DNA of 64,000 nucleotides from Thioalkalivibrio sp. K90mix (GTDB lineage: Bacteria > Pseudomonadota > Gammaproteobacteria > Ectothiorhodospirales > Ectothiorhodospiraceae): positions 1,605,501 to 1,669,500 of the forward strand of contig NC_013889.1 of assembly GCF_000025545.1 (NCBI RefSeq), read 5' to 3'. Position 1 is the stretch's first letter. Every line of letters begins with the position of its first letter. The notes beneath the pieces were generated by a model. It searched no databases. It was not told the DNA's origin and saw nothing but the letters and a program-made list of their open reading frames with translations. A program made the position numbers and the translations under genes. Below, piece after piece: positions 1 to 54,219 of the stretch.

Positions 1-337
1 CGATCCCGAGGCGGTCATCGACGCCCTGGTCCAGCTGGTGCGTCCGGGCGGCTGGCTGTTCCTCTCGACCATCAACCGCACCCCCCGCGCGTTCGCCGAA
101 GCGATCGTCGGTGCCGAATACGTACTGCGCCTGCTACCCACCGGCACGCACGAGTACAGCCGCTTTATCCGCCCCTCCGAACTGGGCGCGGTCCTGCGCA
201 AGCACCGCTTCGAGGTCACCGACATGACCGGGCTCACCTACTCGCCGCTGTCCGGCCGCTACCGTCTGGTTCCGCGCACGGACGTCAACTACCTGATGGC
301 CGCGCGCCGGCCTGAAGCCGACAGCGAGACCCCATGA
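1..337 (+). CDS. ubiG: Ubiquinone biosynthesis O-methyltransferase UbiG, C-terminal part
   Basis: The reading frame is open from base 2 and ends at 337, so the window cuts off the N-terminal half with the SAM-binding motifs. What remains has the family signature: RPGGWLFLSTINRTPRAF, then the YxxRLLPTGTHEYSRFIRPSEL segment and the closing DVNYLMAARRP. UbiG performs both O-methylations of ubiquinone synthesis at the membrane using S-adenosylmethionine. The stop overlaps the start of the next gene (ATGA), so the two are probably translationally coupled. Only the C-terminus is visible, but the family match is strong. Confidence 0.93.
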   Translation, partial: DPEAVIDALVQLVRPGGWLFLSTINRTPRAFAEAIVGAEYVLRLLPTGTHEYSRFIRPSELGAVLRKHRFEVTDMTGLTYSPLSGRYRLVPRTDVNYLMAARRPEADSETP

Positions 338-1020
338 GCCGCGAACTCCGCGGGGTCCTGTTCGACCTGGACGGGACCCTGCTCGACACGGCCCCGGACA
401 TGCACGCGGCGCTCACCGTGCTGCTGGCCGAAAACGATCGCCCACCGCTGCCCTTCGAGGCCGTGCGCAATCACGTCTCGCACGGCTCCCAGGCCCTTGT
501 GCAGCTCGGCTTTCCGGATGTCGAGGGTGCGCGCCGCGAGACCCTCAAGCAACGCTACCTGGAGATCTACGCCCGCGACCTGTGCATCGACACCGCTCTG
601 TTCCCCGGGCTGGGCCCCGTGCTGGACGCCTGCGAACAGCGCGGCTGGCCCCTCGGGGTCGTGACCAACAAGCCCGCCTGGCTGACCGAGCCATTGCTGG
701 AGACCCTGGGCCTGTCCCCTCGACTCGCCGCCATCGTCAGTGGTGACACGCTCCCGCAGCGCAAACCGGATCCCGAGCCGATGTGGCTGGCCGCGCGGCA
801 AACGGGTCTGCCCCCTGAACAGCTTTGTTACTGGGGCGATGCCGAGCGCGACATCGCCGCTGGCCGGGCGGCGGGTATGGCAACACTCGTCGCCCGATGG
901 GGCTACATCGATGCCAGCCAGAACCCCGACACCTGGGGCGCCGACGGCACGCTCGATCGCCCCGATGATTTCTGGCGCTGGCACCAGGCCAAAGCGGACC
1001 CGCAATGGCTGGCGAGCTGA
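334..1020 (+). CDS. HAD-family phosphatase, Gph or MupP type
   Basis: This is a 228-residue HAD-superfamily hydrolase. Motif I is DLDGTLLDT (nucleophile Asp11, acid Asp13). Motif II is around VVTNKP, motif III is the lysine in QRKPDPEP, and motif IV is WGDAERDIAAG. Such proteins are usually named phosphoglycolate phosphatase. In Pseudomonas the gene between ubiG and yciK is MupP, the N-acetylmuramate-6-phosphate phosphatase of cell-wall recycling. Here ubiG is directly upstream, and yciK lies further down after the squalene genes, so MupP is a real alternative. Sequence alone does not settle the substrate. It overlaps ubiG by 4 bases and rmuC by 16. Confidence 0.88.
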   Translation: MSRELRGVLFDLDGTLLDTAPDMHAALTVLLAENDRPPLPFEAVRNHVSHGSQALVQLGFPDVEGARRETLKQRYLEIYARDLCIDTALFPGLGPVLDACEQRGWPLGVVTNKPAWLTEPLLETLGLSPRLAAIVSGDTLPQRKPDPEPMWLAARQTGLPPEQLCYWGDAERDIAAGRAAGMATLVARWGYIDASQNPDTWGADGTLDRPDDFWRWHQAKADPQWLAS

Positions 1021-2333
1021 CCGAACTGTCGACCACGGCCTGGCTGGCCCTGGCCGCTGCCCTGCTGGTCGGGCTCCTGCTGGGATATACGCTGGCCAGT
1101 CTGCGCCTGAACCGTCGCATCGGGGATCTGCAAACCCGCAATGCCCGGCTGGAAGCCGAACTGGAGGGCGCCGAACAGCGTCGCGAGGACTTGCGTCAGA
1201 GTTTCGAGACCGCGCGGCAGGAACTGGATCGCTCCTTCTCCGCCCTGGCCAGCGAGGCCCTCGAGGCCAACTCCAACCAGTTTCTGCGTCTGGCCCAGTC
1301 GATCCTGACGCAGAAGCTCAGCGAGGGGCAGAACGAGATCGCGCGCTCGGAAAACAAGGTCGAGGCGATGCTCAAGCCGATTCGGGAGACACTGGGCAAG
1401 ACCGAGGCCGAAATCAACGCGATGGAACGCTCGCGTGCCCAGGCCTTCGCCGCCCTGAATGAACAGATCCAGCGCCTGAGCTCGGACAACGCCACCCTCC
1501 AGCGCGAGGCCCACAACCTGGTCCAGGCCCTCTCCCGCCCCGGCGTGCGCGGGCGCTGGGGCGAGCTGACGCTCAAGCGCGCCGTGGAACTGGCCGGCCT
1601 CTCGGCGCACTGCGACTTCACCGAACAACCCGCGCTGGACGGCGATGGCGGGCGCCAGCGTCCGGATCTGCTGGTACACATGCCCGGCAACCGGGCCCTG
1701 GTGGTCGATGCCAAGACACCACTGGATGCCTATCTGGACGCGGTCGCCGCCACCGATCCAGAGCCGCGCGCCGCCGCCTTCAAACGCCATGCCCAGCACC
1801 TGCGCTCGCGCGTCACCGAACTCTCCAGCAAACAGTACTGGGCCAGTGTCGAGCAGTCCCCGGAGTTCGCCGTCCTGTTCCTGCCCGGCGACCCGTTCCT
1901 GGCCGCCGCGCTGGAACACGAACCCGGCCTGCTGGAGTACGCGCTGGAGCGCCAGGTTCTGCTGGCCACGCCGAGCACGCTGATCGCCCTGTTGCGCACC
2001 GTCGAGTACGGCTGGCAGCAGTCCCAGCTCACCGAGCACGCGCTGGAGATTCGCGACCTCGGCGCGGAGCTCTCCCACCGCCTGGGCACCATGACCGAAC
2101 ACATGGCGCGCCTCGGCAAGGCACTGGACCAGAGCACCGACGCCTTCAACAAGACGGTCGGCAGCCTGGAGCGCCAGGTCATGCCCAGCGCCCGACGGTT
2201 TCAGGAGCTGGGCATCCGCGCGCGCAAGACCCCCGAGACCCCGGACACCCTGAACAATCGGGCTCGGCGCCCCGTCGAGGTCGATGATGCGGGCGACACA
2301 GGCGACGACAACAAGCCCGAAACGCAGGACTGA
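1005..2333 (+). CDS. rmuC: DNA recombination protein RmuC
   Basis: The 442-residue protein starts with one hydrophobic helix (about residues 8-28), followed by a long charged coiled coil (about 30-180). The RmuC core then follows, with RGRWGELTLKRAVELAGL and RPDLLVHMPGNRALVVDAKTPLDAY; the DAK motif matches the PD-(D/E)xK-like nuclease fold of this family. RmuC limits inversion at short inverted repeats, and its precise biochemistry is not well known. The ATG at 1005 lies inside the end of the phosphatase gene. The acidic C-terminus (after about residue 405) is probably disordered. Length is normal for the family. Confidence 0.93.
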   Translation: MAGELTELSTTAWLALAAALLVGLLLGYTLASLRLNRRIGDLQTRNARLEAELEGAEQRREDLRQSFETARQELDRSFSALASEALEANSNQFLRLAQSILTQKLSEGQNEIARSENKVEAMLKPIRETLGKTEAEINAMERSRAQAFAALNEQIQRLSSDNATLQREAHNLVQALSRPGVRGRWGELTLKRAVELAGLSAHCDFTEQPALDGDGGRQRPDLLVHMPGNRALVVDAKTPLDAYLDAVAATDPEPRAAAFKRHAQHLRSRVTELSSKQYWASVEQSPEFAVLFLPGDPFLAAALEHEPGLLEYALERQVLLATPSTLIALLRTVEYGWQQSQLTEHALEIRDLGAELSHRLGTMTEHMARLGKALDQSTDAFNKTVGSLERQVMPSARRFQELGIRARKTPETPDTLNNRARRPVEVDDAGDTGDDNKPETQD

Positions 2334-2337
2334 CCCG

Positions 2338-3216
2338 ATGGCCGGACATCCCGACATCCGTGCCGCCTACCGCCACTGCCGGGTCCGCGCCACCGCGCAC
2401 TACGAGAACTTCCCGGTCGCCTCCTGGCTGCTGCCCGCGCGACTGCGCGGACCCGTCGCCGCGATCTACTGCTTCGCCCGCGATGCCGACGACCTCGCCG
2501 ACGAGGACCAGCGCCCCGTCGACGAGCGACGGGCCGACCTGGTCGCCATGCAGGAACGCGTGCAGATTCTCGAAGATCCGGCCGCGGAGTCCGAGCCGGA
2601 ATGGATCGCGCTGGCTGATGCGCGGCAGCGCTTCGGCCTGCCCGCTGCCCCGTTTGTCGATCTGGTCGACGCCTTCATCCAGGACCTGGAACAAACGCGC
2701 TACGCCACCTTTGGCGAGGTCGTGGAGTACTGCCGCCGCTCCGCCAACCCGGTCGGCCGGCTGATGCTGTACCTCGACGGCAACCCCACCGAGGAGATGA
2801 TCGGCTACTCCGACGCGGTCTGCTCGGCCCTGCAGCTGATCAACTTCTATCAGGACCTGCACCAGGACCTCACCGAGAACGACCGGATCTATCTGCCACA
2901 GGACGAGATGGCGCAATACGGCGTCAGCGAAGAGACGATCGCGGCCGGCCAGACGACCTTTCAGTTACGCAACCTGATGCAGTTTCAGTACGCCCGCGCC
3001 GATCGCCTGCTGCGCGCCGGAGCACCGCTCGGCGGCATGCTGCGCGGGCGCATGGGCCTGGAGATCCGCGCCATCATCAACGGCGGCGCCCGCGTACTCT
3101 GGCGCCTGCGCCAGCAGGACGACGTCTTCGCCCGCCCGCGCCTGCGCGCCCGCGACGCCTGGGTCATCCTCGCCCACAGCCTGCGCCCGCGCCGCCGCAA
3201 GCGAAACGCTGATTAG
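2338..3216 (+). CDS. hpnC: Hydroxysqualene synthase HpnC
   Basis: This is a squalene/phytoene-synthase family protein of 292 residues. It carries the first aspartate-rich motif FARDADDLADE (about residues 45-55), and the second is represented by YQDLHQDLTEND. In the bacterial three-enzyme route HpnD makes presqualene diphosphate, HpnC turns it into hydroxysqualene and HpnE reduces this to squalene. All three genes are present here. An in-frame ATG lies upstream at 2284, but 2338 (MAGHPDIRAAYRHC) sits just after the rmuC stop and matches the family N-terminus. It converges with hemN, the stop codons overlapping by 4 bases. Confidence 0.93.
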   Translation: MAGHPDIRAAYRHCRVRATAHYENFPVASWLLPARLRGPVAAIYCFARDADDLADEDQRPVDERRADLVAMQERVQILEDPAAESEPEWIALADARQRFGLPAAPFVDLVDAFIQDLEQTRYATFGEVVEYCRRSANPVGRLMLYLDGNPTEEMIGYSDAVCSALQLINFYQDLHQDLTENDRIYLPQDEMAQYGVSEETIAAGQTTFQLRNLMQFQYARADRLLRAGAPLGGMLRGRMGLEIRAIINGGARVLWRLRQQDDVFARPRLRARDAWVILAHSLRPRRRKRNAD

Positions 3217-4601
3217 ACGACCTTCGAGTAGCGACGGCGTTCCTCGCGGTTGAGGTAGGCGTCGAAGGCCATGGCGATGTTGCGCAGCAGGAGTCGGCCG
3301 CGTGGCTGGACCTCCAGGCTGTCGCGGCCGATGGTGACGAGGCCATCGGCCTCCATCTCGGCCAGGCGGTTCAGGGCATCGGCGAAGGTCTCGCGGAAGT
3401 CGATGCCGAATGTGGCCTCGATGCCGCCGAAGTCGATCCTCGAGTGGCACATCAGCTCGCTGATCACGGCACGCCGCAGACGGTCGTCCTCGCTCAGTTC
3501 CAGGCCGCGGAAAACGGGCAACTGGCCCGCCGCCAGCCGTTCCTGATAGGCATCCACCTCGCGCAGGTTCTGACTGTAGCTGTCCCCGATCTTGCCGATG
3601 GCGGTGGGTCCGAGTGCCACGAGGTCGTACTCCGCCCGCGTCGAGTAGCCCTGGAAATTTCGTTGCAGGGTGCCCGCACGCTGGGCGATCGCGAGTTCGT
3701 CATCGGGCAGCGCAAAGTGATCCATGCCGATGTACACATACCCGGCGTCGGTCAGGCGCTGGATGGTCATCTCGAGGACCGCAAGCTTCTCCGTGGCCGG
3801 CGGCAGGTCGCCGTCGCGGATCTGGCGCTGCGTCTTGAACAGCTCCGGCAGGTGCGCGTAGTTGTATACGGCCAGCCGCTCCGGGCGGAGTTCCAGCACG
3901 CGGTCCAGTGTCGCGGAGAATGTGTCCACCGTCTGCAGGGGCAGCCCGTAGATCAGGTCCAGGTTGGTGGAGACAAAGCCGTGCTCGCGCGCCTGGCGGA
4001 CCGCCTGCTCGGTGACCTCGAATGGCTGGATGCGGTTGACGGCCTTCTGCACGGCGGGATCGACATCCTGCACCCCCACACTGATGCGGTTGAAGCCCAG
4101 CGATGCCAGAAGCGGCAGGGTACCGGGACGCACGGCACGCGGATCGATCTCGATCGAGAATTCCCGCTCCGGCCCCGTCTCCAGCGTGAAATGTCGACCC
4201 AGGGCCTTCATGACCCGGGTCAGATCCTCGTCGGACAGATACGTCGGCGTCCCGCCCCCGAAGTGCAGCTGGCGCACCGGCCGATCGCGATCGAACCACT
4301 CGCCCTGCAGGGCAATCTCCTGTTCCAGCGAGTCGAGATAGCTCGTCGCCCGCCGATAATTGCCGGTAATCACCTTGTTGCAGGCGCAGTAGAAACACAC
4401 CGTGTCGCAGAAGGGCACGTGGACATAGAGCGAGAGCGGTCGCGCCGCCCCTTTGACATTCGTCGCCCGCGCCACCCGCGCATAGGCCTGTGCGTCGAAC
4501 GCCTCGTGGAACTGCGGCGCCGTGGGGTACGACGTGTAGCGAGGGCCGCTGACGTCATAGCGACGCAAGACTTCAGGATCGAATACCAGACGCTGTTCCA
4601 T
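3213..4601 (-). CDS. hemN: Oxygen-independent coproporphyrinogen III oxidase HemN
   Basis: This is a radical-SAM enzyme converting coproporphyrinogen III to protoporphyrinogen IX without oxygen. The cluster-binding motif is CDTVCFYCACNK (CxxxCxxC), preceded by the family start YDVSGPRYTSYPTAPQF. Later come HFGGGTPTYL, EIDPRAVRPGTL, NLDLIYGLPLQT and GMDHFALPDDELA. I chose the ATG at 4601 (462 residues, MEQRLVFDPEVL), which matches known HemN starts; the frame is open up to 4652. The gene is antisense to the squalene genes on either side. An FNR/ANR-type box about 80 bases upstream predicts induction at low oxygen. Confidence 0.96.
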   Translation of the reverse strand: MEQRLVFDPEVLRRYDVSGPRYTSYPTAPQFHEAFDAQAYARVARATNVKGAARPLSLYVHVPFCDTVCFYCACNKVITGNYRRATSYLDSLEQEIALQGEWFDRDRPVRQLHFGGGTPTYLSDEDLTRVMKALGRHFTLETGPEREFSIEIDPRAVRPGTLPLLASLGFNRISVGVQDVDPAVQKAVNRIQPFEVTEQAVRQAREHGFVSTNLDLIYGLPLQTVDTFSATLDRVLELRPERLAVYNYAHLPELFKTQRQIRDGDLPPATEKLAVLEMTIQRLTDAGYVYIGMDHFALPDDELAIAQRAGTLQRNFQGYSTRAEYDLVALGPTAIGKIGDSYSQNLREVDAYQERLAAGQLPVFRGLELSEDDRLRRAVISELMCHSRIDFGGIEATFGIDFRETFADALNRLAEMEADGLVTIGRDSLEVQPRGRLLLRNIAMAFDAYLNREERRRYSKVV

Positions 4602-4678
4602 ACGGGTTTCCGCATCGGGAGGGCGGCCCTTGTGCCACCCTGACGCTTTCACCCTAAGCGCCCCCGAGACGGGCCTTG

Positions 4679-4692
4679 TTGATGTATGTCAA
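4679..4692. promoter_or_regulatory. FNR/ANR-type binding site upstream of hemN
   Basis: The sequence TTGAT-GTAT-GTCAA differs by one base from the FNR/ANR consensus TTGAT-N4-ATCAA. It lies about 80 bases before the hemN start and about 95 before hpnD on the other strand. hemN is a classical FNR/ANR target in Proteobacteria, so the placement is biologically sensible. No transcription start can be read directly. Confidence 0.75.
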
Positions 4693-4781
4693 AAGGCGTT
4701 TCGATCACCCGCGTCGTCCGCATCCCGGCCCCGCTGTGCTAGCCTTGCCGTCCCAAGACGGTACCCCGATCCCGAGCGCGT

Positions 4782-5639
4782 ATGTCCCCCGACGAATATT
4801 GCGAGGAGAAGGCCGCGAAGAGCGGCTCCAGCTTCTACTACGCATTCCGTTTTCTGGAACCCGACCGGCGCCGTGCGATCACCGCGCTGTACGCGTTCTG
4901 CCGCGAGGTGGACGACATCGTCGACGAGGTCCGCGAGGAGAGCGTGGCGCGCACCAAGCTTCAGTGGTGGCGCGAGGAGATCGAGCGCCTGTTCGACCAT
5001 CAGCCGCGCCACCCGATCACCCAGGCCCTGCAGCCGCATCTGGCGCCGTTCGATCTCAGCCGCGAGTACTTCGACGAGATCATCGACGGCATGCAGATGG
5101 ACCTCGACTACGACAGCTATCCCGACTTCACCACACTGTCGCTGTACTGCTACCGCGCGGCCAGCGTGGTCGGGATCCTGTCCGCCCATATCTTCGGCTT
5201 CTCGGACCGGCGCACGCTGAAGTACGCGCATGACTTAGGCATGGCCCTGCAGCTGACCAACATCCTGCGCGACGTCCACGAGGACGCAATGCGCGGCCGC
5301 GTCTACATCCCGCTGGACGAGCTGAAAAAGCACGGCGTAAAGCCCGAAGAATTTCAGGTCAACGTCACCGACGACCGCCACCGCGCCCTGTTCGCCGAGC
5401 AGGCCGAGCGGGCCCGCCGCTACTACCAGCGCGCGGAGGAGCACCTGCCCGCCGAGGACCGCTACCCCCAGCGCCCGGGTCTGATCATGGCCGCGATCTA
5501 CCGCACCCTGCTCGACGAAATCCAGGACGACGGCTACCGCGTGCTGGAGCACCGCGTACGGCTGACCCCGATCCGCAAGCTGTGGATCGCCTGGCGCACC
5601 GCGCGCCGCCTGAAGCGCGAATACCGCCGCGCGGGCTGA
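4782..5639 (+). CDS. hpnD: Presqualene diphosphate synthase HpnD
   Basis: This 285-residue squalene/phytoene-synthase family protein has both aspartate-rich motifs: REVDDIVDEV (about residues 44-53) and NILRDVHEDAMRGRVYIP (about 163-180). HpnD joins two farnesyl diphosphates to give presqualene diphosphate. The C-terminus is basic (RTARRLKREYRRAG), which suits membrane association. It is followed after 13 bases by hpnE and is clearly co-directional with it. Distinguishing HpnD from HpnC rests on the closer match to the HpnD-type N-terminus CEEKAAKSGSSFYYAFRFL. Confidence 0.93.
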   Translation: MSPDEYCEEKAAKSGSSFYYAFRFLEPDRRRAITALYAFCREVDDIVDEVREESVARTKLQWWREEIERLFDHQPRHPITQALQPHLAPFDLSREYFDEIIDGMQMDLDYDSYPDFTTLSLYCYRAASVVGILSAHIFGFSDRRTLKYAHDLGMALQLTNILRDVHEDAMRGRVYIPLDELKKHGVKPEEFQVNVTDDRHRALFAEQAERARRYYQRAEEHLPAEDRYPQRPGLIMAAIYRTLLDEIQDDGYRVLEHRVRLTPIRKLWIAWRTARRLKREYRRAG

Positions 5640-5652
5640 CCCCGCCCGCACC

Positions 5653-6987
5653 ATGGCCGCCGTTCCCGAATCGCATCCGGTCGTCGTGCTCGGCGCCGGC
5701 TGGGCCGGTCTGACCGCCGCGCTGACCCTGGCCCGGGCCGGCATCGCGGTCCACCTGATCGAGGCCGCCGCGACCGCAGGCGGGCGCGCCCGCAGCCTCA
5801 ACCGCGATGGTGCGGACCTGGATAACGGCCAGCACGTGCTGGTCGGTGCCTGTCACGCCACGCTGGACCAGCTGCGCTCAGTCGGCACCGACCCGGAGCG
5901 CGCCTTCGTGGCCCTGCCGTTCGGACTGCGCATGCATGCCCCGGGCCACCCTCACCCAGCCTTTACCCTGGAGCCCCGCTCGCCACGTCTGCCGGCCCTG
6001 GTTCATGGCTTGTGGCAATCGCTCGCGGGCACCCCGTTTCACCGCAGACTCCCGGCCCTGCTGGGGGCTGCCTCGATCCTGTACCGGCCGTTGGAGGAAG
6101 ATCTCGACGTACTCGAATGGCTACAGGCGCGTCATCAGCCGGACACGCTGATCCGCCAGCTCTGGGAACCGCTGTGCCTCGCGGTCATGAACACGCCAAT
6201 CCGCAGCGCCTCGGCGCAGATCTTCCAGAACGTGCTGCGCCTGGCCCTGAACCACGGGCCGGACGACGCGCGGCTGCTCATCCCGACTCGGCCGCTGGGG
6301 TCGCTGTATCCCGAACCGGCCCTGCGCGAACTGCACGAGCGCGGCGCCACGGTCGAAACCGGACGGCGCATTGTGGTCATCGAATCCAGGGGAACCGAGT
6401 CCCGCTATCAGCTCCGTGATCGTAACCATCACGTTACCCCTGCCAACGCGGTGATCCTCGCCACGTCGCCCAGCGCGGCCACTCGGCTCCTGCCCGAGGC
6501 CCCCGAGCTCCAGCCCCACCATCGGGCCCTGAGGGCCATGGGCGAGCGCAGCATCTGTACGGTCTACCTGCACTATCCGGACCCCGTCCTGGCACGCCCG
6601 CCGCTGCAGGGACTCCTCGACCAGCACGGACAATGGCTGATTCCCCGCCAGGTGGCCGGCGAGCCGAACTGGCTGGCCGTCGTGATCTCCACCGCGGACG
6701 ACCTGCCGACGATGACGGCGGAGGAGCGCTGGCGTCGGGTTGCTAAAGAGCTGGAACGGACCTTCCCCGAACTGGGAATGCCCCGGACCGGTCATGTCGT
6801 GTGCGAGAAACGCGCCACCATTGATGCCCGCGTCGATCTGGACGCGCTCCGCCCGGTAGCCGGCACCCCCTGGCCCGGGCTGTTCCTGGCGGGCGACTAT
6901 GTGACACCGGGCCTGCCCTCGACCCTCGAAGCGGCCGTGCAGTCTGGATTAGAATCAGCCCACAAGCTACTGGAGACCCTCCCTTGA
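5653..6987 (+). CDS. hpnE: Hydroxysqualene dehydroxylase HpnE
   Basis: This is a 444-residue FAD-dependent amine-oxidase-type protein. The dinucleotide motif is VVVLGAGWAGLTAALTLARAG (residues about 9-29), followed by an arginine-rich GGRARSL segment and DNGQHVLVGA. The C-terminal FAD signature is LFLAGDYVTPGLPSTLEAAVQSG. HpnE reduces hydroxysqualene to squalene, completing the HpnD-HpnC-HpnE route that can feed hopanoids; no squalene-hopene cyclase gene lies in this window. The stop TGA overlaps the TTG start of yciK, so translation is probably coupled. Confidence 0.93.
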   Translation: MAAVPESHPVVVLGAGWAGLTAALTLARAGIAVHLIEAAATAGGRARSLNRDGADLDNGQHVLVGACHATLDQLRSVGTDPERAFVALPFGLRMHAPGHPHPAFTLEPRSPRLPALVHGLWQSLAGTPFHRRLPALLGAASILYRPLEEDLDVLEWLQARHQPDTLIRQLWEPLCLAVMNTPIRSASAQIFQNVLRLALNHGPDDARLLIPTRPLGSLYPEPALRELHERGATVETGRRIVVIESRGTESRYQLRDRNHHVTPANAVILATSPSAATRLLPEAPELQPHHRALRAMGERSICTVYLHYPDPVLARPPLQGLLDQHGQWLIPRQVAGEPNWLAVVISTADDLPTMTAEERWRRVAKELERTFPELGMPRTGHVVCEKRATIDARVDLDALRPVAGTPWPGLFLAGDYVTPGLPSTLEAAVQSGLESAHKLLETLP

Positions 6988-7793
6988 CCGATCTCGACAT
7001 CCCTGCCCTGCTCGACTACCGCCCGGAACCGGGTGCCTTCAACGACCGCGTGATCTTGGTAACCGGCGCGGCCGCGGGCATCGGACGTGCAATCGCCCAG
7101 GCCTGCGCGGCGGCGGGCGCGATCGTCGTGCTGCTGGACAAGGACATCAAGGGGCTGGAGAAGACCTACGACCTGATCGAGCAGGAAGGCCATCCACAGC
7201 CGGCCATCTACCCGCTCAACCTGGAGGGCGCCACGGTCAAGGACTACGGCGACCTGGCCGAGAACATCCGCGACTCCCTCGGGCGCCTGGACGGACTGGT
7301 GCTGCACGCCGGCTGGGCCGGCACCCTGACCCCCATGAAGGGGTACGACCCCGAGTTGTGGTTCAAGGTCATCAACAGCAACCTGCACGGCCCGTTCTTC
7401 CTCGCCCAGGCCGTACTCCCACTGCTGGAGGACAGCCCGCACGGCAGCCTGGTCGTCTCCACTCAGGACTGCCGCAAGGCCTTCTGGGGCGCCTTCGGCA
7501 TGGCCAAGGCCGCGCAGGACGCGATGATCGACATCCTCGTGCGCGAACACCGCAACGAGAAGCACTTCATCCATGTGAACGGCATCGACACCGGCCCGGT
7601 CCGCTCGCGCTTCCGCGCCGGCCACTACCCGGCCGAGAACGCCGACAAGCTGCCGCGCCCGGAAGACGTCGTCGGCCCGTACCTCTACCTGCTCAACACC
7701 ACCGACCCCGCGCACACCGGCCTGCACCTGTCGCTGGAAGGCCATGTACCCGAGCCGGCACCCCGCCCGCACCACCAGCCCCAGGAGGGCTAA
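6984..7793 (+). CDS. yciK: YciK-type short-chain dehydrogenase
   Basis: This is a 269-residue SDR with cofactor motif TGAAAGIGRAIA (about residues 27-38). The usual SDR active-site serine and YxxxK are altered: the segment reads STQDCRKAFWGAFGMAKAAQDAM, so the classical tyrosine appears to be replaced by phenylalanine (FGMAK). The start is TTG at 6984, overlapping the hpnE stop. yciK is widely found next to ubiG and its HAD phosphatase in gammaproteobacteria. Here rmuC and the squalene genes lie between them. The C-terminus is proline- and histidine-rich. Physiological substrate unknown. Confidence 0.82.
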   Translation: MTDLDIPALLDYRPEPGAFNDRVILVTGAAAGIGRAIAQACAAAGAIVVLLDKDIKGLEKTYDLIEQEGHPQPAIYPLNLEGATVKDYGDLAENIRDSLGRLDGLVLHAGWAGTLTPMKGYDPELWFKVINSNLHGPFFLAQAVLPLLEDSPHGSLVVSTQDCRKAFWGAFGMAKAAQDAMIDILVREHRNEKHFIHVNGIDTGPVRSRFRAGHYPAENADKLPRPEDVVGPYLYLLNTTDPAHTGLHLSLEGHVPEPAPRPHHQPQEG

Positions 7794-46355: not shown

Positions 46356-46586
46356 ATGAATCGATACAACCGCAAACTCGAAATCGACTACGATCACTTC
46401 ACTTACGACTGCAGAAGCGGAAATTACTACCTATACAAGGAATCTATAGACAAGACTCTGACGGACGGATTGGTTTTGGAATTAATAGTAAGCAACAAGA
46501 ACACCCAAACCAGCACGGTCATGACCCAGTTTCACAGCATTGCAGCCCTGATGGTCTGGGTCCAAAAACTTGAGTCCATGCCTTGA
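46356..46586 (+). CDS. Small AT-rich hypothetical protein
   Basis: A 76-residue frame (MNRYNRKLEIDYDHFTYDCR, then SGNYYLYKESIDKTLTDGLV, LELIVSNKNTQTSTVMTQFH) with base composition far from the surroundings, suggesting recent transfer. AAGGAAAA lies before the ATG. No family recognised. It lies alone between the dehydrogenase and the RAYT array. Confidence 0.5.
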   Translation: MNRYNRKLEIDYDHFTYDCRSGNYYLYKESIDKTLTDGLVLELIVSNKNTQTSTVMTQFHSIAALMVWVQKLESMP

Positions 46587-46637
46587 CAACTAGAACGTCA
46601 ACCAGAATAAATCGTAAACTGGGACAGATTTATTATC

Positions 46638-47330
46638 TCACGCCCGACATGATGGCGGGCGACCAGGGCGGCGGCGCTCAATGCGGCAGCCGATAATCTG
46701 CTCCACCTCGTCCACGAACCGCTGGTTGCCCGTGAGCTGACCGCGCTGGAGCGCCTCGCGCATCAGCGTCAGCTCCTTCTGCGGGACGCCCTGCTCCACG
46801 AAGCGGGCGTAGCGTGTGCGCCGCTCGGTCTCTTCATCCGCCAAGTCGAGATACGCCGGGTCCAAATCGATCCAGCTCTCCGTCTCGCCCATCCGCTGGC
46901 GGTAGCTGGACCAGATGTACTCCCGGGCGGCCGCCACCATACGCGCCCGCACCGGGTTCAGCTCGATGTAGCGAGCGCAGGCCAGCAGATACGTCTCCGT
47001 CTGCACCGGGCTGGACTTGTAGCGGCCTTCCCACAACGTGCCGGAGCGTCCCTCCAGCCGATTGCGGTACCGCGTGGCCCGCGCCGCCAGCGCCTTCATC
47101 AACCGGCCCATGGCGGCTACTTCCTCACCCGGCCCCAGCAACAGGTGCACATGGTTCGTCATCAGGCAGTACGCATACACTCGAATGTCCAGCGCACTGC
47201 TCAGCTCGCGCAGGTCCTCCAGGTACCGTTCGTAATCCCCATCTTCTGCGAAAACCACCTGCCGATTGTGCCCACGCTGCACCACATGGTGCGGCATATG
47301 CGGCAACACCACTCGCGCCATCCTTGGCAT
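46638..47330 (-). CDS. RAYT-type transposase, copy 1
   Basis: A 230-residue Y1/HUH transposase. It starts MPRMARVVLPHMPHHVVQRGHN, has the metal-binding HUH segment YCLMTNHVHLLLGPGEE and the catalytic tyrosine segment ARYIELNPVRARM. The later WSSYRQRMGETESWIDLDPAYL and ERYARF-like RRTRYARF match the family. These single-strand-handling nucleases act on REP hairpins. It differs from the other three copies mainly in the C-terminal half (AREYIWSSY, DEETERR, PQKELTL). Confidence 0.93.
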   Translation of the reverse strand: MPRMARVVLPHMPHHVVQRGHNRQVVFAEDGDYERYLEDLRELSSALDIRVYAYCLMTNHVHLLLGPGEEVAAMGRLMKALAARATRYRNRLEGRSGTLWEGRYKSSPVQTETYLLACARYIELNPVRARMVAAAREYIWSSYRQRMGETESWIDLDPAYLDLADEETERRTRYARFVEQGVPQKELTLMREALQRGQLTGNQRFVDEVEQIIGCRIERRRPGRPPSCRA

Positions 47331-47472
47331 GCTTTACCTCCCTGCTCACTCACTACGACCGCCACGTCCATACAGCGGAAAATAAATCTGTCCCCGTTTT
47401 CCCCTCGTTCTCCCGTTGGAGATCACCGATCCGACAAAAACGGGGACCGAAAACGGGGACAGATTTATTTTC

Positions 47473-47985
47473 TCACACGCGTCGAGACGGTGGGCGGCCC
47501 GGACGCCGCCGCTCGATGCGGCAGCCGATGATCTGCTCCACCTCGTCCACGAATCGCTGGTTGCCCGTGAGCTGGCCACGCTGCAAGGCCTCGCGCACCA
47601 GTGTCAGCTCCGGCTCCGGAACGCGCTGCTCCACGAAGCGGGCGTATCGCGCGCGCCGCCTGGCCTCGTTGTCGCCCAGATCCAGGTACGCCGGGTCCAG
47701 ATCAATCCACTGCGCTTCATGACCCATACGCTGACGGAAGCTGGACCAGGCATAGTCACAGGGCGCTGGCACGATCCGCCCCCGCACTGGGTGCGACTCG
47801 ATCTACCGCGTCCAGGCAAGCAAATACGTCTCCATCTGCACCGGGCTGGACTTGTAGCGCCCCTCCCACACCTTACCGGACCGCCCCTCTAGCCTATTAC
47901 GATACCGCGTAGCGCGGGCCGCTAACGCCTTCATCAGACGACCCATGGCGGCCACCTCCTCGCCGGGGCCCAGCGACGGATGCAC
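47473..47985 (-). pseudogene. Truncated RAYT, psi copy 1
   Basis: The 5' part is missing up to the GPGEEVAAMGRLMKALAARA segment, so the HUH motif is gone. The piece then reads NRLEGRSGKVWEGRYKSSPV then QMETYLLAWTR, after which TAG replaces the TAC of the expected TRYIELNPVRA. It continues IESHPVRGRIVPAPCDYAWS then SFRQRMGHEAQWIDLDPAYL to the C-terminus. The stop falls exactly at the predicted catalytic tyrosine. The 5' end joins directly to the array repeat. Confidence 0.9.
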
Positions 47986-48011
47986 GCGAAAACGGGGACA
48001 GATTTATTTTC

Positions 48012-48704
48012 TCATGCCCGGCATGATCGCGGGCGGCCGGGGCGGCGGCGCTCAATGCGGCAGCCGATGATCTGCTCCACCTCGTCCACGAAGCGCTGGT
48101 TGCCCGTGAGCTGGCCGCGCTGTAACGCCTCGCGCATCAGTGTCAGCTCCTGCTCCGGCACGCCCTGCTCCACGAACCGGGCGTATCGCGCGCGCCGGTC
48201 GGCTTCGCGGTGCGCCAAGTCCAGGTAGGCCGGATCCAGATCGATCCATTGCTCTTCCTCGCCCATACGCTGACGGTAACTGGACCAGGCGTAGTCACCG
48301 GCCGCTGGCACCATCCTCGCCCGTACCGGGTTGAGCTCGATGTACCGCGTGCAGGCCAGCAGATACGTCTCCGTCTGCACCGGGCTGGACTTGTAGCGGC
48401 CTTCCCACAGCGTACCGGACCGTCCCTCCAGCCGATTGCGGTACCGCGTGGCCCGCGCCGCCAGCGCCTTCATCAACCGGCCCATGGCGGCTACTTCCTC
48501 ACCCGGCCCCAGCAACAGGTGGACGTGGTTCGTCATCAAGCAGTACGCATACACCCGGATGTCCAGCGCACTGCTCAGCTCCCGCAGATCTTCCAGGTAC
48601 CGCTCGTAATCCTCGTCCCCGGCAAACACCACCTGCCGATTATGCCCGCGCTGCACCACATGGTGCGGCATATGCGGCAACACCACTCGCGCCATCCTTG
48701 GCAT
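48012..48704 (-). CDS. RAYT-type transposase, copy 2
   Basis: 230 residues with intact HUH (TNHVHLLL) and catalytic TRYIELNPVRARM. The predicted protein is identical to copy 3. It carries AGDEDYERYL and MVPAAGDYAWSSYRQ, unlike copy 1. Flanked by the array repeat on both sides. Confidence 0.93.
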   Translation of the reverse strand: MPRMARVVLPHMPHHVVQRGHNRQVVFAGDEDYERYLEDLRELSSALDIRVYAYCLMTNHVHLLLGPGEEVAAMGRLMKALAARATRYRNRLEGRSGTLWEGRYKSSPVQTETYLLACTRYIELNPVRARMVPAAGDYAWSSYRQRMGEEEQWIDLDPAYLDLAHREADRRARYARFVEQGVPEQELTLMREALQRGQLTGNQRFVDEVEQIIGCRIERRRPGRPRSCRA

Positions 48705-48935
48705 GCCTTCCCTCCCGAATCATCCGGCCCGCTCCCAGCGGCGAAAGTAAATCTGTCCCCGTTTTCTCCGTCCCCGTTTTCTCCATACCGCTCCTGCTGC
48801 ATCACCGCGGCATCCTTGCGACGGAGAATCAATCTGTCACCGTTTCCGCGTATGCCCGCTCCACAAAAACGGGGACAGATTTATTTTCTCACGCCCGGCG
48901 TGATGACGATCGAAAACGGGGACAGATTTATTTTC

Positions 48936-49448
48936 TCACACGCGTCGAGACGGTGGGCGGCCCGGACGCCGCCGCTCGATGCGGCAGCCGATGATCTGCT
49001 CCACCTCGTCCACGAATCGCTGGTTGCCCGTGAGCTGGCCACGCTGCAAGGCCTCGCGCACCAGTGTCAGCTCCGGCTCCGGAACGCGCTGCTCCACGAA
49101 GCGGGCGTATCGCGCGCGCCGCCTGGCCTCGTTGTCGCCCAGATCCAGGTACGCCGGGTCCAGATCAATCCACTGCGCTTCATGACCCATACGCTGACGG
49201 AAGCTGGACCAGGCATAGTCACAGGGCGCTGGCACGATCCGCCCCCGCACTGGGTGCGACTCGATCTACCGCGTCCAGGCAAGCAAATACGTCTCCATCT
49301 GCACCGGGCTGGACTTGTAGCGCCCCTCCCACACCTTACCGGACCGCCCCTCTAGCCTATTACGATACCGCGTAGCGCGGGCCGCTAACGCCTTCATCAG
49401 ACGACCCATGGCGGCCACCTCCTCGCCGGGGCCCAGCGACGGATGCAC
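48936..49448 (-). pseudogene. Truncated RAYT, psi copy 2
   Basis: Same lesions as psi copy 1 (5' truncation and TAG at the catalytic tyrosine codon), exactly 1463 bases further on, with no difference that I could see. Confidence 0.9.
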
Positions 49449-49474
49449 GCGAAAACGGGGACAGATTTATTTTC

Positions 49475-50167
49475 TCATGCCCGGCATGATCGCGGGCGGC
49501 CGGGGCGGCGGCGCTCAATGCGGCAGCCGATGATCTGCTCCACCTCGTCCACGAAGCGCTGGTTGCCCGTGAGCTGGCCGCGCTGTAACGCCTCGCGCAT
49601 CAGTGTCAGCTCCTGCTCCGGCACGCCCTGCTCCACGAACCGGGCGTATCGCGCGCGCCGGTCGGCTTCGCGGTGCGCCAAGTCCAGGTAGGCCGGATCC
49701 AGATCGATCCATTGCTCTTCCTCGCCCATACGCTGACGGTAACTGGACCAGGCGTAGTCACCGGCCGCTGGCACCATCCTCGCCCGTACCGGGTTGAGCT
49801 CGATGTACCGCGTGCAGGCCAGCAGATACGTCTCCGTCTGCACCGGGCTGGACTTGTAGCGGCCTTCCCACAGCGTACCGGACCGTCCCTCCAGCCGATT
49901 GCGGTACCGCGTGGCCCGCGCCGCCAGCGCCTTCATCAACCGGCCCATGGCGGCTACTTCCTCACCCGGCCCCAGCAACAGGTGGACGTGGTTCGTCATC
50001 AAGCAGTACGCATACACCCGGATGTCCAGCGCACTGCTCAGCTCCCGCAGATCTTCCAGGTACCGCTCGTAATCCTCGTCCCCGGCAAACACCACCTGCC
50101 GATTATGCCCGCGCTGCACCACATGGTGCGGCATATGCGGCAACACCACTCGCGCCATCCTTGGCAT
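49475..50167 (-). CDS. RAYT-type transposase, copy 3
   Basis: Identical in predicted protein to copy 2, offset by 1463 bases, which shows a very recent tandem duplication or an assembly artefact. HUH and tyrosine motifs are intact. Confidence 0.92.
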   Translation of the reverse strand: MPRMARVVLPHMPHHVVQRGHNRQVVFAGDEDYERYLEDLRELSSALDIRVYAYCLMTNHVHLLLGPGEEVAAMGRLMKALAARATRYRNRLEGRSGTLWEGRYKSSPVQTETYLLACTRYIELNPVRARMVPAAGDYAWSSYRQRMGEEEQWIDLDPAYLDLAHREADRRARYARFVEQGVPEQELTLMREALQRGQLTGNQRFVDEVEQIIGCRIERRRPGRPRSCRA

Positions 50168-50398
50168 GCCTTCCCTCCCGAATCATCCGGCCCGCTCCCA
50201 GCGGCGAAAGTAAATCTGTCCCCGTTTTCTCCGTCCCCGTTTTCTCCATACCGCTCCTGCTGCATCACCGCGGCATCCTTGCGACGGAGAATCAATCTGT
50301 CACCGTTTCCGCGTATGCCCGCTCCACAAAAACGGGGACAGATTTATTTTCTCACGCCCGGCGTGATGACGATCGAAAACGGGGACAGATTTATTTTC

Positions 50399-50980
50399 TC
50401 ACACGCGTCGAGACGGTGGGCGGCCCGGACGCCGCCGCTCGATGCGGCAGCCGATGATCTGCTCCACCTCGTCCACGAATCGCTGGTTGCCCGTGAGCTG
50501 GCCACGCTGCAAGGCCTCGCGCACCAGTGTCAGCTCCGGCTCCGGAACGCGCTGCTCCACGAAGCGGGCGTATCGCGCGCGCCGCCTGGCCTCGTTGTCG
50601 CCCAGATCCAGGTACGCCGGGTCCAGATCAATCCACTGCGCTTCATGACCCATACGCTGACGGAAGCTGGACCAGGCATAGTCACAGGGCGCTGGCACGA
50701 TCCGCCCCCGCACTGGGTGCGACTCGATCTACCGCGTCCAGGCAAGCAAATACGTCTCCATCTGCACCGGGCTGGACTTGTAGCGCCCCTCCCACACCTT
50801 ACCGGACCGCCCCTCTAGCCTATTACGATACCGCGTAGCGCGGGCCGCTAACGCCTTCATCAGACGACCCATGGCGGCCACCTCCTCGCCGGGGCCCAGC
50901 GACGGATGCACGGAAAACGGGGACAGATTTATTTTCTCACGCCCGGCGTGATGACGGGCGGCCAGGTCGGCGGCGCTCAA
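50399..50980 (-). pseudogene. Truncated RAYT, psi copy 3
   Basis: Third copy of the same truncated gene. Its 5' flank differs slightly from the other two (GGATGCACGGAAAACGGGG instead of GCACGCGAAAACGGGG), marking where the repeated unit ends. Confidence 0.88.
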
Positions 50981-51629
50981 TGCGGCAGCCGATGATCTGC
51001 TCCACCTCGTCCACGAATCGCTGGTTGCCCGTGAGCTGCCCGCGTTGCAGGGCCTCGCGCACCAGTGTCAGCTCCGGCTCCGGAACGCCCTGCTCCACGA
51101 AGCGGGCATATCGCGCGCGCCGGTCGGGTTCATGGTGCCCCAAGTCCAGGTACGCCGGATCCAGATCGATCCATTGCTCTTCCTCGCCCATACGCTGACG
51201 GAAACTGGACCAGGCGTAGTCACCGGCCGCTGGCACCATGCGCGCCCGCACGGGGTTCAGTTCGATGTACCGCGTGCAAGCGAGCAGGTACGTCTCCGTC
51301 TGCACCGGGCTGGACTTGTAGCGCCCTTCCCACAGTGTACCGGAGCGGCCCTCCAGCCGATTGCGATACCGCGTGGCGCGCGCCGCCAGCGCCTTCATCA
51401 ACCGGCCCATGGCGGCTACTTCCTCACCCGGCCCCAGCAACAGGTGCACATGGTTCGTCATCAGGCAGTACGCATACACTCGAATGTCCAGCGCACTGCT
51501 CAGCTCGCGCAGGTCCTCCAGGTACCGTTCGTAATCCCCATCTTCTGCGAAAACCACCTGCCGATTGTGCCCACGCTGCACCACATGGTGCGGCATATGC
51601 GGCAACACCACTCGCGCCATCCTTGGCAT
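50937..51629 (-). CDS. RAYT-type transposase, copy 4
   Basis: 230 residues with intact HUH and TRYIELNPVRARM. The N-terminal half and upstream flank match copy 1 (FAEDGDYERYL, CTTTACCTCCCTGCTCACTC), but the rest is closer to copies 2 and 3 (PAAGDYAWSSFRQRMGEEEQW). It is therefore a mosaic, made by recombination between copies. Confidence 0.93.
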   Translation of the reverse strand: MPRMARVVLPHMPHHVVQRGHNRQVVFAEDGDYERYLEDLRELSSALDIRVYAYCLMTNHVHLLLGPGEEVAAMGRLMKALAARATRYRNRLEGRSGTLWEGRYKSSPVQTETYLLACTRYIELNPVRARMVPAAGDYAWSSFRQRMGEEEQWIDLDPAYLDLGHHEPDRRARYARFVEQGVPEPELTLVREALQRGQLTGNQRFVDEVEQIIGCRIERRRPGRPSSRRA

Positions 51630-51721
51630 GCTTTACCTCCCTGCTCACTCACTACGACCGCCACGTCCATACAGCGGAAAATAAATCTGTCCCCGTTTTC
51701 CCCTCGTTCTCCCGTTGGAGA

Positions 51722-51898
51722 TCACCGATCCGGGCAGTTGCGCGCGTCATGCCCGTAACCGTTGCAGATCCGGCACCGGCGAATGATCGGGCAGGTCTGT
51801 ATGTTGTGACCGGACTGCCCGCAATGGGAGCAACGCGGTACGTTGGGGCAGTTGCGCGCCGTATGCGCGCCAGAGCCGCAATTGGAACAGGCCATCAT
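51722..51898 (-). CDS. Triple CCHC zinc-knuckle mini-protein
   Basis: A 58-codon gene. It encodes three CX2CX4HX4C knuckles: CSNCGSGAHTARNC, CSHCGQSGHNIQTC and CRICNGYGHDARNC, then PDR and a stop. GGAGG lies 4 bases before the first ATG (51898) and 7 before a second in-frame ATG (51895). Zinc knuckles bind single-stranded nucleic acids in retroviral and eukaryotic proteins and are uncommon in bacteria. It starts 22 bases after the stop of the nuclease gene, so they probably form an operon. The RAYT array begins just after its stop. Confidence 0.78.
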   Translation of the reverse strand: MMACSNCGSGAHTARNCPNVPRCSHCGQSGHNIQTCPIIRRCRICNGYGHDARNCPDR

Positions 51899-51919
51899 TT
51901 ATCCTCCGTAGAATGCGTT

Positions 51920-53077
51920 TCACTCGTTCGGGTCACTGGAATCCGCGCGCACCCCCACGCTCTCCTCCAGGCGCTGTTTCATGCAGCCGATGTCGTCGCC
52001 ATTCTGAGGCACTTTCCAGCCACAGTGCAGGCGGCTTCCGGCATCCACGATGCGTCGGCACAGCGGGCAAAGCTCTTGGCTAGACTGGTCGACGAGGGTG
52101 CGAAGCCAATCGGCATCGTCCATTGAGCGGTATTCGGCGCGCTGAACTTCGACGAGATCCGCAATGCGGTCGCCGTCCGGGTCGATGCTCATCGAAAGGG
52201 CGCCAATGCCGTTGCTGCGGCACATGGCCAGCAACTCGCTCAAACGTGCCTCGTCGTGGAACTGGGCTGCGTCGAACAGCGGGATGATGATGTAGGTGTA
52301 GTTCGAGCGACTGCGGTAGTTGACCGCCTGGCTGATGGCCTGGGAGATCGCGGGGATGTCATTCGTGGCCTTCAGCTCAAAGCTGTACATCACGAACTCG
52401 TCATTGGCCATCTGGCGACGGATACGGAACCCGACGAAATCCGCGTTCTCGAATCGGCCACCCTGGCGGCGACTCTGTACGTGCTCGACCCGGGCAAAGT
52501 CGAACGCCTCCTTGAGCCAGGGCAGCAGCGCGTGGCCAAGCTGGTCTTCGCGCCGGCGGCTGTTGGTACCCGGGTATCGGTATTCCCGCGTTGCGGCGCT
52601 GAAGCGCTGGCTGCGCCCCTGCGCGAAACGATAACTTCGGTTGCCGCATACGGCGTCCTTGAACCCGGAACGAAAGGCGTCCAGGTCGCTGTCGATACCA
52701 TGGCGGTGCATCAGCTCCGCGACACTCGGCATCCGTTGTTTGAGCACTTCATCCAGGCGACCTTCTGGGACGCCCTCGTTGAGTAGCTGCTCGCCCAGTG
52801 CCTTGCCCGCAGCGGCCGGCGGCTCGATCGCCGTGAGGCTCAAGGGGCCGCCCCGGCCGGGGGTTGGCTGCCAGTAGAAACCCATGTCGGCTTGATGCCC
52901 CAGCAACCGCTCCTTGAACGCTGCCCACTGTTCAATGCCCTTCTTTCCGCAAAGGGTGTGTCTCTGGTCGGCGCTCATGGCCGCCAGGCTGGATTTCAGC
53001 AGCCGCGGGGGCTCATTGTTTTGAGCGAAGCGCAGGCATTCGGCCGCGCTGCGTTCCATGGCATCGGGGGCGTTCAT
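51920..53077 (-). CDS. Putative PD-(D/E)xK-type nuclease with C-terminal zinc site
   Basis: About 385 residues from ATG 53077 (MNAPDAMERSAAECLRFAQ). A middle domain has ENADFVGFRIRRQ, then VMYSFELKATNDIPAISQAISQAVNYRSRSNYTYIIIPLFD, which fits the D-(x)n-ExK core and the following helix of restriction-type nucleases. The C-terminus has CPLCRRIVDAGSRLHCGWKV and later DIGCMK, a probable zinc site. I do not recognise a named family. The ATG overlaps the stop of the methyltransferase tail (ATGA), so it was once coupled to it. The frame runs upstream into IS5 sequence, an artefact of insertion. Confidence 0.65.
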   Translation of the reverse strand: MNAPDAMERSAAECLRFAQNNEPPRLLKSSLAAMSADQRHTLCGKKGIEQWAAFKERLLGHQADMGFYWQPTPGRGGPLSLTAIEPPAAAGKALGEQLLNEGVPEGRLDEVLKQRMPSVAELMHRHGIDSDLDAFRSGFKDAVCGNRSYRFAQGRSQRFSAATREYRYPGTNSRRREDQLGHALLPWLKEAFDFARVEHVQSRRQGGRFENADFVGFRIRRQMANDEFVMYSFELKATNDIPAISQAISQAVNYRSRSNYTYIIIPLFDAAQFHDEARLSELLAMCRSNGIGALSMSIDPDGDRIADLVEVQRAEYRSMDDADWLRTLVDQSSQELCPLCRRIVDAGSRLHCGWKVPQNGDDIGCMKQRLEESVGVRADSSDPNE

Positions 53078-53107
53078 GCAGGCTCGTAGACGAAGAAGCG
53101 GTGGTAG
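53074..53107 (-). pseudogene. Severed C-terminal tail of the methyltransferase
   Basis: Reads HRFFVYEPA then stop, and continues exactly the sequence NENPY cut off on the far side of the IS5 element. The target CTAC (GTAG on the plus strand) is duplicated at 53104-53107 and 54308-54311. The stop overlaps the nuclease start. Confidence 0.9.
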
Positions 53108-53196
53108 GGAAACGCTGATCAATGGGCCTGCATCCGGCTCCGTGCCCCGCCGAAGCGTTTTTGGAAGGGCACTGGGGCCATTACGGCCGGCCTGGG

Positions 53197-53253: not shown

Positions 53254-54219
53254 CTACCCCTGCGGCAGCAGCCCCCATTGTCGCGCACGGTACAGGTTCG
53301 CCAGGGCGAACAGGCTGTGCAGCTGCGCGGTGTTCTTCTTGAGGCCGCGGTAGCGCACCTTGCGATATCCGAACAGGTTCTTCACCACATGGAACGGATG
53401 CTCCACGATCGAACGCAACTGAGCCTTGTGCCGTTCAGCGGCGCGCACCTGATCGCGTTCGGGGCCCTCTGGCATCGCACGTACCGTGCCGCGCTTGCGC
53501 GCGATGTGCGTCTCCGGACGATGGCCTTCCAGTCGCTTCTCCGCACCGATGTAGCCGGCATCGCCATGCAGGCTCGCTTCCTCGCCGTGGAGCAGTTCCG
53601 GCACCTGCGAGACGTCCGAGACATTCGCAGCGGTACCCTTCACGGTATGAACCAGGCCGGTGACGACATCGGCCCCGATATGCGCCTTCATCCCGAAGTA
53701 CCACTGGTTGCCTTTCCTCGCCTGGTGCATCTCTGGATCGCGCGCCTTCTCCCGGTTCTTGGTCGACGGCGGGGCCGCGATCAGGGTGGCGTCCACCACT
53801 GTGCCCTCGCGCAACATCAGTCCCCGCTGCTGCAGATGGGCGTTGATCCGGTCGAAGATCACCTGGGTCAGGTTGTGCTGCTCCAGCAGCCGGCGGAACT
53901 GCAGCAGGGTCGTGGCATCCGGGGCGTCTTCGCGGCTCAGGTCGATCCCGACAAAGCTCCGGATCGCCTGGCTGTCGTACACCGCGTCCTCGATCCCTTC
54001 GTCCGACAGGTTGAAGCACTGCTGGGCCACGTACATCCGCAGCATCCGTTCCAGACCAATCGGCGGACGACCCCGCTTCCCCTTCGGGTAGTGCGGCTCG
54101 ATCGCCTCCACCAGCGCCGCCCAGGGCGTGATCGCATCGATCTCCCCCAGAAAGCGGTCGCGCCGCGTCTGCTTACGCTTGGCGGAATACTCGAGATCGG
54201 AAAAGCTGCGCTGGGACAT
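53254..54219 (-). CDS. IS5-family transposase
   Basis: A 321-residue DDE transposase. N-terminal DUF772-like region: LEAIEPHYPKGKRGRPPIGLERMLRMYVAQQ. Catalytic Asp in GTVVDATLIAAPP, then HTVKGTAANVSD with Asp in LHGDAGYIGAEKR, and Glu in RSIVEHPFHVVKNLFGYRKVRYRGL (H-x3-K-x4-Y region). Length and motifs fit an active IS5-group element. It could act in trans on the MITEs. Confidence 0.95.
   Translation of the reverse strand: MSQRSFSDLEYSAKRKQTRRDRFLGEIDAITPWAALVEAIEPHYPKGKRGRPPIGLERMLRMYVAQQCFNLSDEGIEDAVYDSQAIRSFVGIDLSREDAPDATTLLQFRRLLEQHNLTQVIFDRINAHLQQRGLMLREGTVVDATLIAAPPSTKNREKARDPEMHQARKGNQWYFGMKAHIGADVVTGLVHTVKGTAANVSDVSQVPELLHGEEASLHGDAGYIGAEKRLEGHRPETHIARKRGTVRAMPEGPERDQVRAAERHKAQLRSIVEHPFHVVKNLFGYRKVRYRGLKKNTAQLHSLFALANLYRARQWGLLPQG

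Follow-up and report, generated by a model that had tools for sequence, protein, structure and literature searches.

A stack of nested TIRYT elements in Thioalkalivibrio sp. K90mix with joints at the element terminus

The window analyzed here is a stretch of 64,000 nucleotides from the genome of the soda-lake bacterium Thioalkalivibrio sp. K90mix (contig NC_013889.1, positions 1,605,501 to 1,669,500). Between 46612 and 51732 of this window, seven copies of a Y1 (HUH) transposase gene run head to tail on the minus strand, with four whole 230-residue open reading frames (ORFs) and three truncated ones. The array is best explained as a stack of ~770-bp TIRYT elements, each composed of an inverted repeat (AAAACGGGGACAGATTTATTTTC), one Y1 HUH gene and a second inverted repeat. 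The joints of the array and the duplications found at related elements share one fixed edge, the element terminus, while their other edge varies. Close copies are in direct orientation, and the short events mostly lack homology. The shared placement of the joints hints that such stacks are built by the enzyme's own cutting, which may also seed short repeats of the kind known from many bacterial genomes.

Results

Layout of the array

The whole elements are labeled F1 to F4 below, and the broken copies interspersed among them B1 to B3. Positions are those of the window.

46612-47403, minus strand: F1, whole TIRYT element, gene 46638-47330, right end degenerate (TGGGACAGATTTATTATC); termini set 8 nt outside the G/C-run
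47404-47433, minus strand: F1 flank, 30 nt, exact copy of the F4 flank (51703-51732)
47434-47446, minus strand: solo right-end fragment, 13 nt, terminus ACAAAAAC
47447-47985, minus strand: B1, 3′ part of the outer element, from the right end to the HUH motif, catalytic Tyr codon TAG; matches nt 240-774 of the element in genome G006
47448-50912, no strand assigned: exact tandem block, period 1463, 2.37 copies by exact-match comparison
47986-48783, minus strand: F2, whole element nested in B1, gene 48012-48704; left terminus duplicated, 15 bp (48769-48783)
48784-48849, minus strand: B1, 5′ part, the outer element's left inverted repeat, leader and start codon; chromosome 1654284-1654345 matches the G006 left end
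48850-48862, no strand assigned: spacer, 13 nt, the sole DNA in the repeated unit not recognized as element sequence
48863-48909, minus strand: solo right end, 47 nt, F4 type, appended to the B2 right end; 48866-48908 is identical to 50914-50956
48910-49448, minus strand: B2, 3′ part, same as B1 save the first base
49449-50246, minus strand: F3, gene 49475-50167, identical to F2
50247-50312, minus strand: B2, 5′ part
50326-50372, minus strand: second copy of the 47-nt solo right end
50373-50910, minus strand: B3, 3′ part, without a B left end after it
50911-51702, minus strand: F4, whole element, gene 50937-51629, 5′ half same as F1
51703-51732, minus strand: F4 flank, 30 nt, common to F1

A sequence-only reading of this DNA had counted four full and three broken genes. 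All seven copies are present, but the "broken" ones are better read as one element that was split by another and then duplicated along with it. The left repeat, leader and start codon of B lie beyond F2, and therefore F2 is inside B. Approximately 177 nt of B are gone at the insertion (element nt ~63-239), relative to an element length of ~774 bp taken from the G006 copy, whose two edges recur in the matches from other genomes in a cross-genome alignment. B looks dead on two counts: the sequence is truncated within the HUH motif, and TAG replaces the catalytic Tyr codon.

The marker CGAAAACGGGG occurs five times in the window compared to 0.06 times by chance in shuffles. Three occurrences (47448, 48911 and 50374) confirm the two steps of 1463 bases noted previously, and the other two (47987 and 49450) are one such step apart. 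Positions 47448-49449 equal 48911-50912 with zero mismatches over a run of 2002 bp, and the three broken copies are mutually identical across exact runs in the exact-match comparison. As judged from the sequence, the 1463-bp unit is B with F nested in it, plus the 13-nt spacer and the 47-nt solo right end of F4 type. The second and third whole copies, whose predicted proteins had been called identical, are the same in DNA as well.

Copy 4 had been described as a mosaic of copy 1 (5′ half) and copies 2/3. Its 5′ half is indeed exactly that of copy 1: 47080-47433 and 51379-51732 are identical over 354 bp, including 30 bp beyond the element. This identity is sequence evidence of exchange or duplication. 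The earlier proposal of amplification and exchange between copies is supported. The 3′ half did not follow the description, as it is only ~87-95% identical to copies 2/3 per 150-column block and in places equally close or closer to copies from other genomes. The F4 3′ half is not a copy of F2 or F3, and the mosaic description is only half correct.

The K90mix genome comprises 2,985,056 bases in two contigs, and all seven genomic matches of the element fall in the array; the next Y1 matches are at most 37% identical. Copies were also counted in related genomes, as suggested. Among 47 genomes of the order, no other had more than 4 matches at E ≤ 1e-30. The class was sampled evenly with 369 genomes, 128 of them positive, and here the largest other count was 6.

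By eye, the right ends of F2, F3 and F4 (near 48010-48030, 49473-49493 and 50935-50955, minus strand) carry a perfect palindrome, TCAnGCCGGGCnTGA, that spans the last codons and the stop codon directly before the right repeat and differs between F2 and F4 by a paired change. This hairpin is visible in Thioalkalivibrio copies and not obvious in the wider family, and we make no claim for it.

The genes are TIRYTs

The array genes are TIRYTs, corresponding to TnpAY1 subclass 2.1 and RAYT group 1, rather than the REP-associated RAYTs that they had been taken for. Their products match Pfam Y1_Tnp (PF01797) with E-values of 1.9e-12 to 3.3e-12, and all four whole copies retain NHVH and YIELNP. Passages of PMC6006769 give these two motifs as the signature of subclass 2.1 and equate that subclass with RAYT group 1 (the Bertels 2017 grouping as given there) and probably with the TIRYTs of PMC3733652. 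F2, F3 and F4 each carry the inverted repeat GGGGACAG at their two ends; F1 has it on the left, and its right end reads TGGGACAG. GGGGACAG fits the TIRYT consensus GGGGWSAS, and across 57 elements the left end matches its own right end from about −5 to +16. The NCBIfam model REP_Tyr_transpos (NF047646) scored 66.4-66.9 bits, below its cut-off of 80, and the IS200/IS605 model (NF033573) scored 20.4-20.6 bits, far under its cut-off of 55.

A fold search with a predicted structure (mean predicted local distance difference test score, pLDDT, of 77.7) returned the TnpAREP structure 4er8 as the best hit, followed by IS608 and ISDra2; searching the PDB by sequence gave no match. The protein has a C-terminal extension with predicted helices at residues 167-181, 184-195 and 203-213 (block pLDDT 59-80) and no Pfam helix-turn-helix match, and it ends in a GRP that is nearly invariant across 21 sequences.

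We rejected an association with REPs because the REP-like GTRG-plus-stem pattern has 0 matches in 46501-51800 (0-3 in eight other 5.3-kb pieces of the window) and because the flanking repeat is low-copy. This rare TIRYT inverted repeat has 18 genomic sites at ≤3 mismatches, 15 of them inside the array; the only sites outside are at chromosome positions 215764, 1819864 and 1821948. The premise that RAYT genes are single copy and domesticated fits the REP-type groups, but for subclass 2.1 there are several close copies, and a relative in genome G368 has five identical ones.

Joints lie at the element terminus

Each terminal repeat was numbered from its G-run. Seven joints of the array can be read, and all of them are 8 (±1) nt outside this run, at 47433/47434, 47446/47447 (±1), 47985/47986, 48783/48784, 48862/48863, 48909/48910 (±1) and 50910/50911 (±1). 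The flanking repeats had been proposed to take part in the amplification, and the position of every readable joint within 1 nt of a repeat terminus supports their involvement.

An independent placement of the terminus comes from G368 (1.54 Mb, one contig). A relative sharing 37% identity with the window protein is present there in five copies that do not differ across 799 bp. Where copies occupy different sites, their sequences part after AATATAAA/GGGG at the left end and after CCCC/TTTATATT at the right end. The left-end divergence is 8 nt outside the G-run, and that at the right end is 8 nt outside in four copies and 7 nt in one. Copies 1 and 3 have a common left flank, copies 2 and 3 have a common right flank, and one copy has a duplicated left end (14 bp). 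G368 provides identical copies with sharp ends at different sites, whereas all K90mix copies are in one array. The five G368 copies (L194-L197) are on one strand within 42 kb, and by eye two of them lie inside duplicated reverse-transcriptase-like genes.

Terminal duplications and stacks in related loci

Direct repeats of at least 10 bases within 60 nt were found in 32 of 120 outer-end windows (18/57 left and 14/63 right), a set that includes eight from the window itself. The comparison sets gave 18/1780 for random windows, 31/1034 for other ORF ends and 14/2400 for shuffles. Complete tandem duplications spanning the repeat numbered 69 at 712 loosely defined anchors, and after events with more than 3 bases of microhomology were dropped (7/69), 62 events from 41 loci remained. 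The outer end was 7-9 nt outside the G-run in 45 of these events, against a mean of 13.1 and at most 28 in 20000 simulations of the null. Counting one event per locus placed it there in 31 of 41. The inner end was variable, with favored positions at +1 (12/62) and +6, GGGGAC^AG (15/62). Microhomology was 0 bases in 40 events, 1 in 10, 2 in 9 and 3 in 3. Duplications confined to the flank (n = 23) showed no peak at −8.

Strict GGGG[AT]CAG anchors had a spanning duplication at 44 of 404 sites; none was present at the 342 distinct control sites drawn from these loci. The controls came from seven patterns, two of which are mutual reverse complements and one a subset of another, leaving 342 distinct sites. 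By flank, duplications were present in 32/146 TIRYT flanks, 4/42 IS200 gene windows, which serve as an imperfect control, and 20/800 random windows.

Stacks also occur elsewhere. Locus L053 carries a 435-bp unit head to tail (6331-6766 and 6766-7201) that ends 7 nt past the right-repeat C-run, and L039 has similar ~440-bp pieces adjoining a whole copy. More than one copy was found in 16 of 88 loci (80 sampled, seven added for holding several copies or fragments, and the window), and all 27 neighboring pairs were in the same orientation. The sampled 80 loci alone gave ten multi-copy loci and 16/16 pairs in the same orientation.

Two side observations concern these loci. Short inverted pairs of 36-83 bp, GGGACAGA...TCTGTCCC, occur in L035, L038, L039, L044, L050, L064, L066, L093, L100, L107 and others, and resemble REPINs or miniature inverted-repeat transposable elements built of TIRYT ends. 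L038 (positions 1-6700, Stutzerimonas zhaodongensis) holds four Y1 copies, and ~1.42-kb gaps separate ORFs with a likeness, by eye, to polymorphic-toxin tips and immunity genes.

A second array in K90mix

Outside the window, at chromosome 1926739-1929599 (L232 1240-4100), K90mix carries a second stack with a Y1 gene (PF01797) that resembles subclass 2.3. On its right side are eight appended end fragments with one common terminus, CCCC plus 8 nt. They match the first end over 117, 27, 89, 87, 89, 62, 22 and 62 nt with one mismatch allowed, which corresponds to about five different inner starts; in the zero-mismatch count, two fragments now at 62 had stood at 50, and two now at 89 had stood at 87. 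Fillers of 2 nt (TA, CG) precede five of the appended ends, and the other three show 0-1 base of microhomology. On the left side, four copies of the left end are spaced by 112, 377 and 112 bases (period 489), and this array also contains exact left-end repeats of 428 and 493 bp. In 29 loci of other genomes with this subclass, events were present at 11 of 69 anchors, and the outer end was at 7-10 in 9 of the 11.

Discussion

A model for stacking

We infer that the fixed edge is the site of transposase cleavage. In the model that we favor, and consider narrowly probable, terminal cleavage by the transposase is followed by joining of the freed end to the interior of that element or of a sister copy, and recombination then amplified the long unit. 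The enzyme would nick one strand at the terminus, 8 nt outside the G-run; either the nicked end or a sister arm, broken after replication meets the nick, would then be joined to an internal site. Each such event would add a direct copy of the end, measuring anything from ~10 bp to hundreds of base pairs or comprising a full element. Exchange between the long repeats by homologous recombination could then yield the exact 1463-bp copies and the F1/F4 exchange, the copies being exact because long units would change copy number by this route. Passages of PMC6006769 describe TnpAREP as capable of cleaving REP sequences and joining them again, which means that a sister group is known to have this chemistry.

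Several observations weigh against this model. The conserved repeat itself stops near −5, and the terminus at −8 is placed from G368 and the duplications. Y1 enzymes are described as working on single strands, and the model does not explain why left and right ends are duplicated about equally. The 18 positive left-end windows include three taken from the window itself, of which two are identical. The IS200 flanks are above random, and the effect may therefore be shared in part by the Y1 superfamily at large. Some of the 16 same-orientation pairs of the sampled loci are weak: the second match in L071 is at 37%, the L100 pair consists of overlapping pieces, and one copy in L067 is at 27%. Two pairs ~9 kb apart (G137 and G286) are in opposite orientation, and the head-to-tail arrangement is thus confined to copies at short range. 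The exact 1463 block has a right edge that could fall at any point within a ~28-bp repeat, so plain recombination could make that step alone, and in the second array some appended ends of the same length may be recombination copies of one another. Finally, the search for an ancestral empty site found the flank 51733-52600 in none of the other 29 genus genomes searched. The flanks of the G006 element were found apart, and never joined, in the stretches examined from G009, G005, G019, G004, G025, G014 and G001.

Alternative explanations

The main rival is self-targeted insertion, in which an excised element would insert one way into its own or a sister terminal repeat to form a stack, with recombination collapsing most stacks and leaving the duplication as a footprint. 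The uniform orientation of neighboring copies (27/27 overall, 16/16 in the sampled loci) and the favored inner positions at +1 and +6 are consistent with such targeting, as is the nesting of F2 in B with both F2 ends at termini. We nevertheless consider it unlikely, because a strand-specific target would not produce left (18/57) and right (14/63) duplications at about equal rates, because ~177 nt of B were lost at the insertion, and because some joints of the second array contain 2-nt fillers.

Another possibility is that homologous unequal crossing-over and gene conversion acted alone on repeats that landed close together by chance, with no part played by the transposase. The exactness of the 1463-bp copies and the 354 bases common to F1 and F4 are what recombination would give, and the terminal repeats supply short homologies for it. 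Yet recombination does not explain terminal duplications of 7-46 bp that have a fixed outer end, mostly lack microhomology and are absent at control motifs. As the sole cause, it seems rather improbable.

Replication slippage at inverted repeats or at A/T-rich ends appears more doubtful still, despite the inverted repeats with A-runs at the ends, which could stall replication, and the excess of duplications at IS200 gene flanks (4/42 against 20/800). Slippage uses direct repeats, yet 40 of 62 events have no microhomology; moreover, the duplicated units begin at one fixed point past the A-run and extend into the element, and a subclass whose repeats lack the A-run behaves alike. Pure recombination and slippage each account for only part of the pattern.

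An assembly artefact giving a wrong copy number is very improbable. Perfect repeats of 1463 bp are a difficult target for 454 and Sanger assembly, but this genome is a finished one, drawing on Sanger clone libraries of 6 kb and 40 kb and on finishing reads in repeats (passages of PMC3368412). Moreover, the B/F joint is present three times with a 1-nt difference at F4, and similar stacks exist in other genomes.

Relation to known systems

The element type is already known, but terminus-anchored duplication and nested stacking appear in none of the accounts consulted, as represented by titles, abstract beginnings and passages. The TIRYT/TIRtron elements of Di Nocera 2013 (PMC3733652) likewise have a Y1 gene between GGGGWSAS inverted repeats and are unrelated to REPs. 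Dimers and clusters of terminal inverted repeats are reported there in some genomes, whereas its passages do not describe nested elements, gene stacks or terminus-anchored duplications. TnpAY1 subclass 2.1 (RAYT group 1; Quentin 2018, PMC6006769) is given in that paper's passages with the same NHVH and YIELNP motifs, the long C-terminal extension and no REP-like structures at the gene. The subclass is reported there as low-copy, in contrast to the identical stacked copies seen here and the five identical copies of its relative in G368. The second array shares NHYH, Y..LNP and a length of about 280-320 residues with subclass 2.3 of the same survey; the survey saw no REP-like structures at such genes, but in L232 both the inverted ends (GGGGTCAGACCTTGCCTTTTG) and the serial duplication of ends are clear. 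Tandem REPIN clusters (Bertels & Rainey 2011, passages of PMC3116915) are also tandem repeats of units with flanks, and a second mechanism of cluster formation is inferred there. REPINs differ in having no gene inside and in belonging to REP-type RAYTs. IS200/IS605 elements (IS608, ISDra2) share the Y1 HUH fold, as judged from the predicted model, but the array elements miss the NF033573 cut-off and have long inverted repeats at their ends.

These findings suggest that mobile, self-stacking behavior with well-defined ends is possible in a TnpAY1 subclass that had been described as low-copy and lacking repeat hairpins. From the pattern, both ends are predicted to be cut at a single position, 8 nt outside the G-run. 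Should the enzyme be responsible, solo ends would have a testable origin, as perhaps would REP clusters; the origin and clustering of REPs is a long-standing question. More tentatively, cutting by TIRYT/RAYT-type enzymes at their own termini might drive serial end duplication as a general engine for solo ends, stacks and end clusters, and could be the missing step from RAYT gene ends to REP/REPIN families.

Adjoining genes

An ORF of 400 residues adjoins the array at window 51920-53122 (minus strand) and has no Pfam, NCBIfam or PHROGs match at E ≤ 0.001. The minus-strand gene at 53254-54219 encodes an IS5-family transposase (NF033581, 319 bits, cut-off 140).

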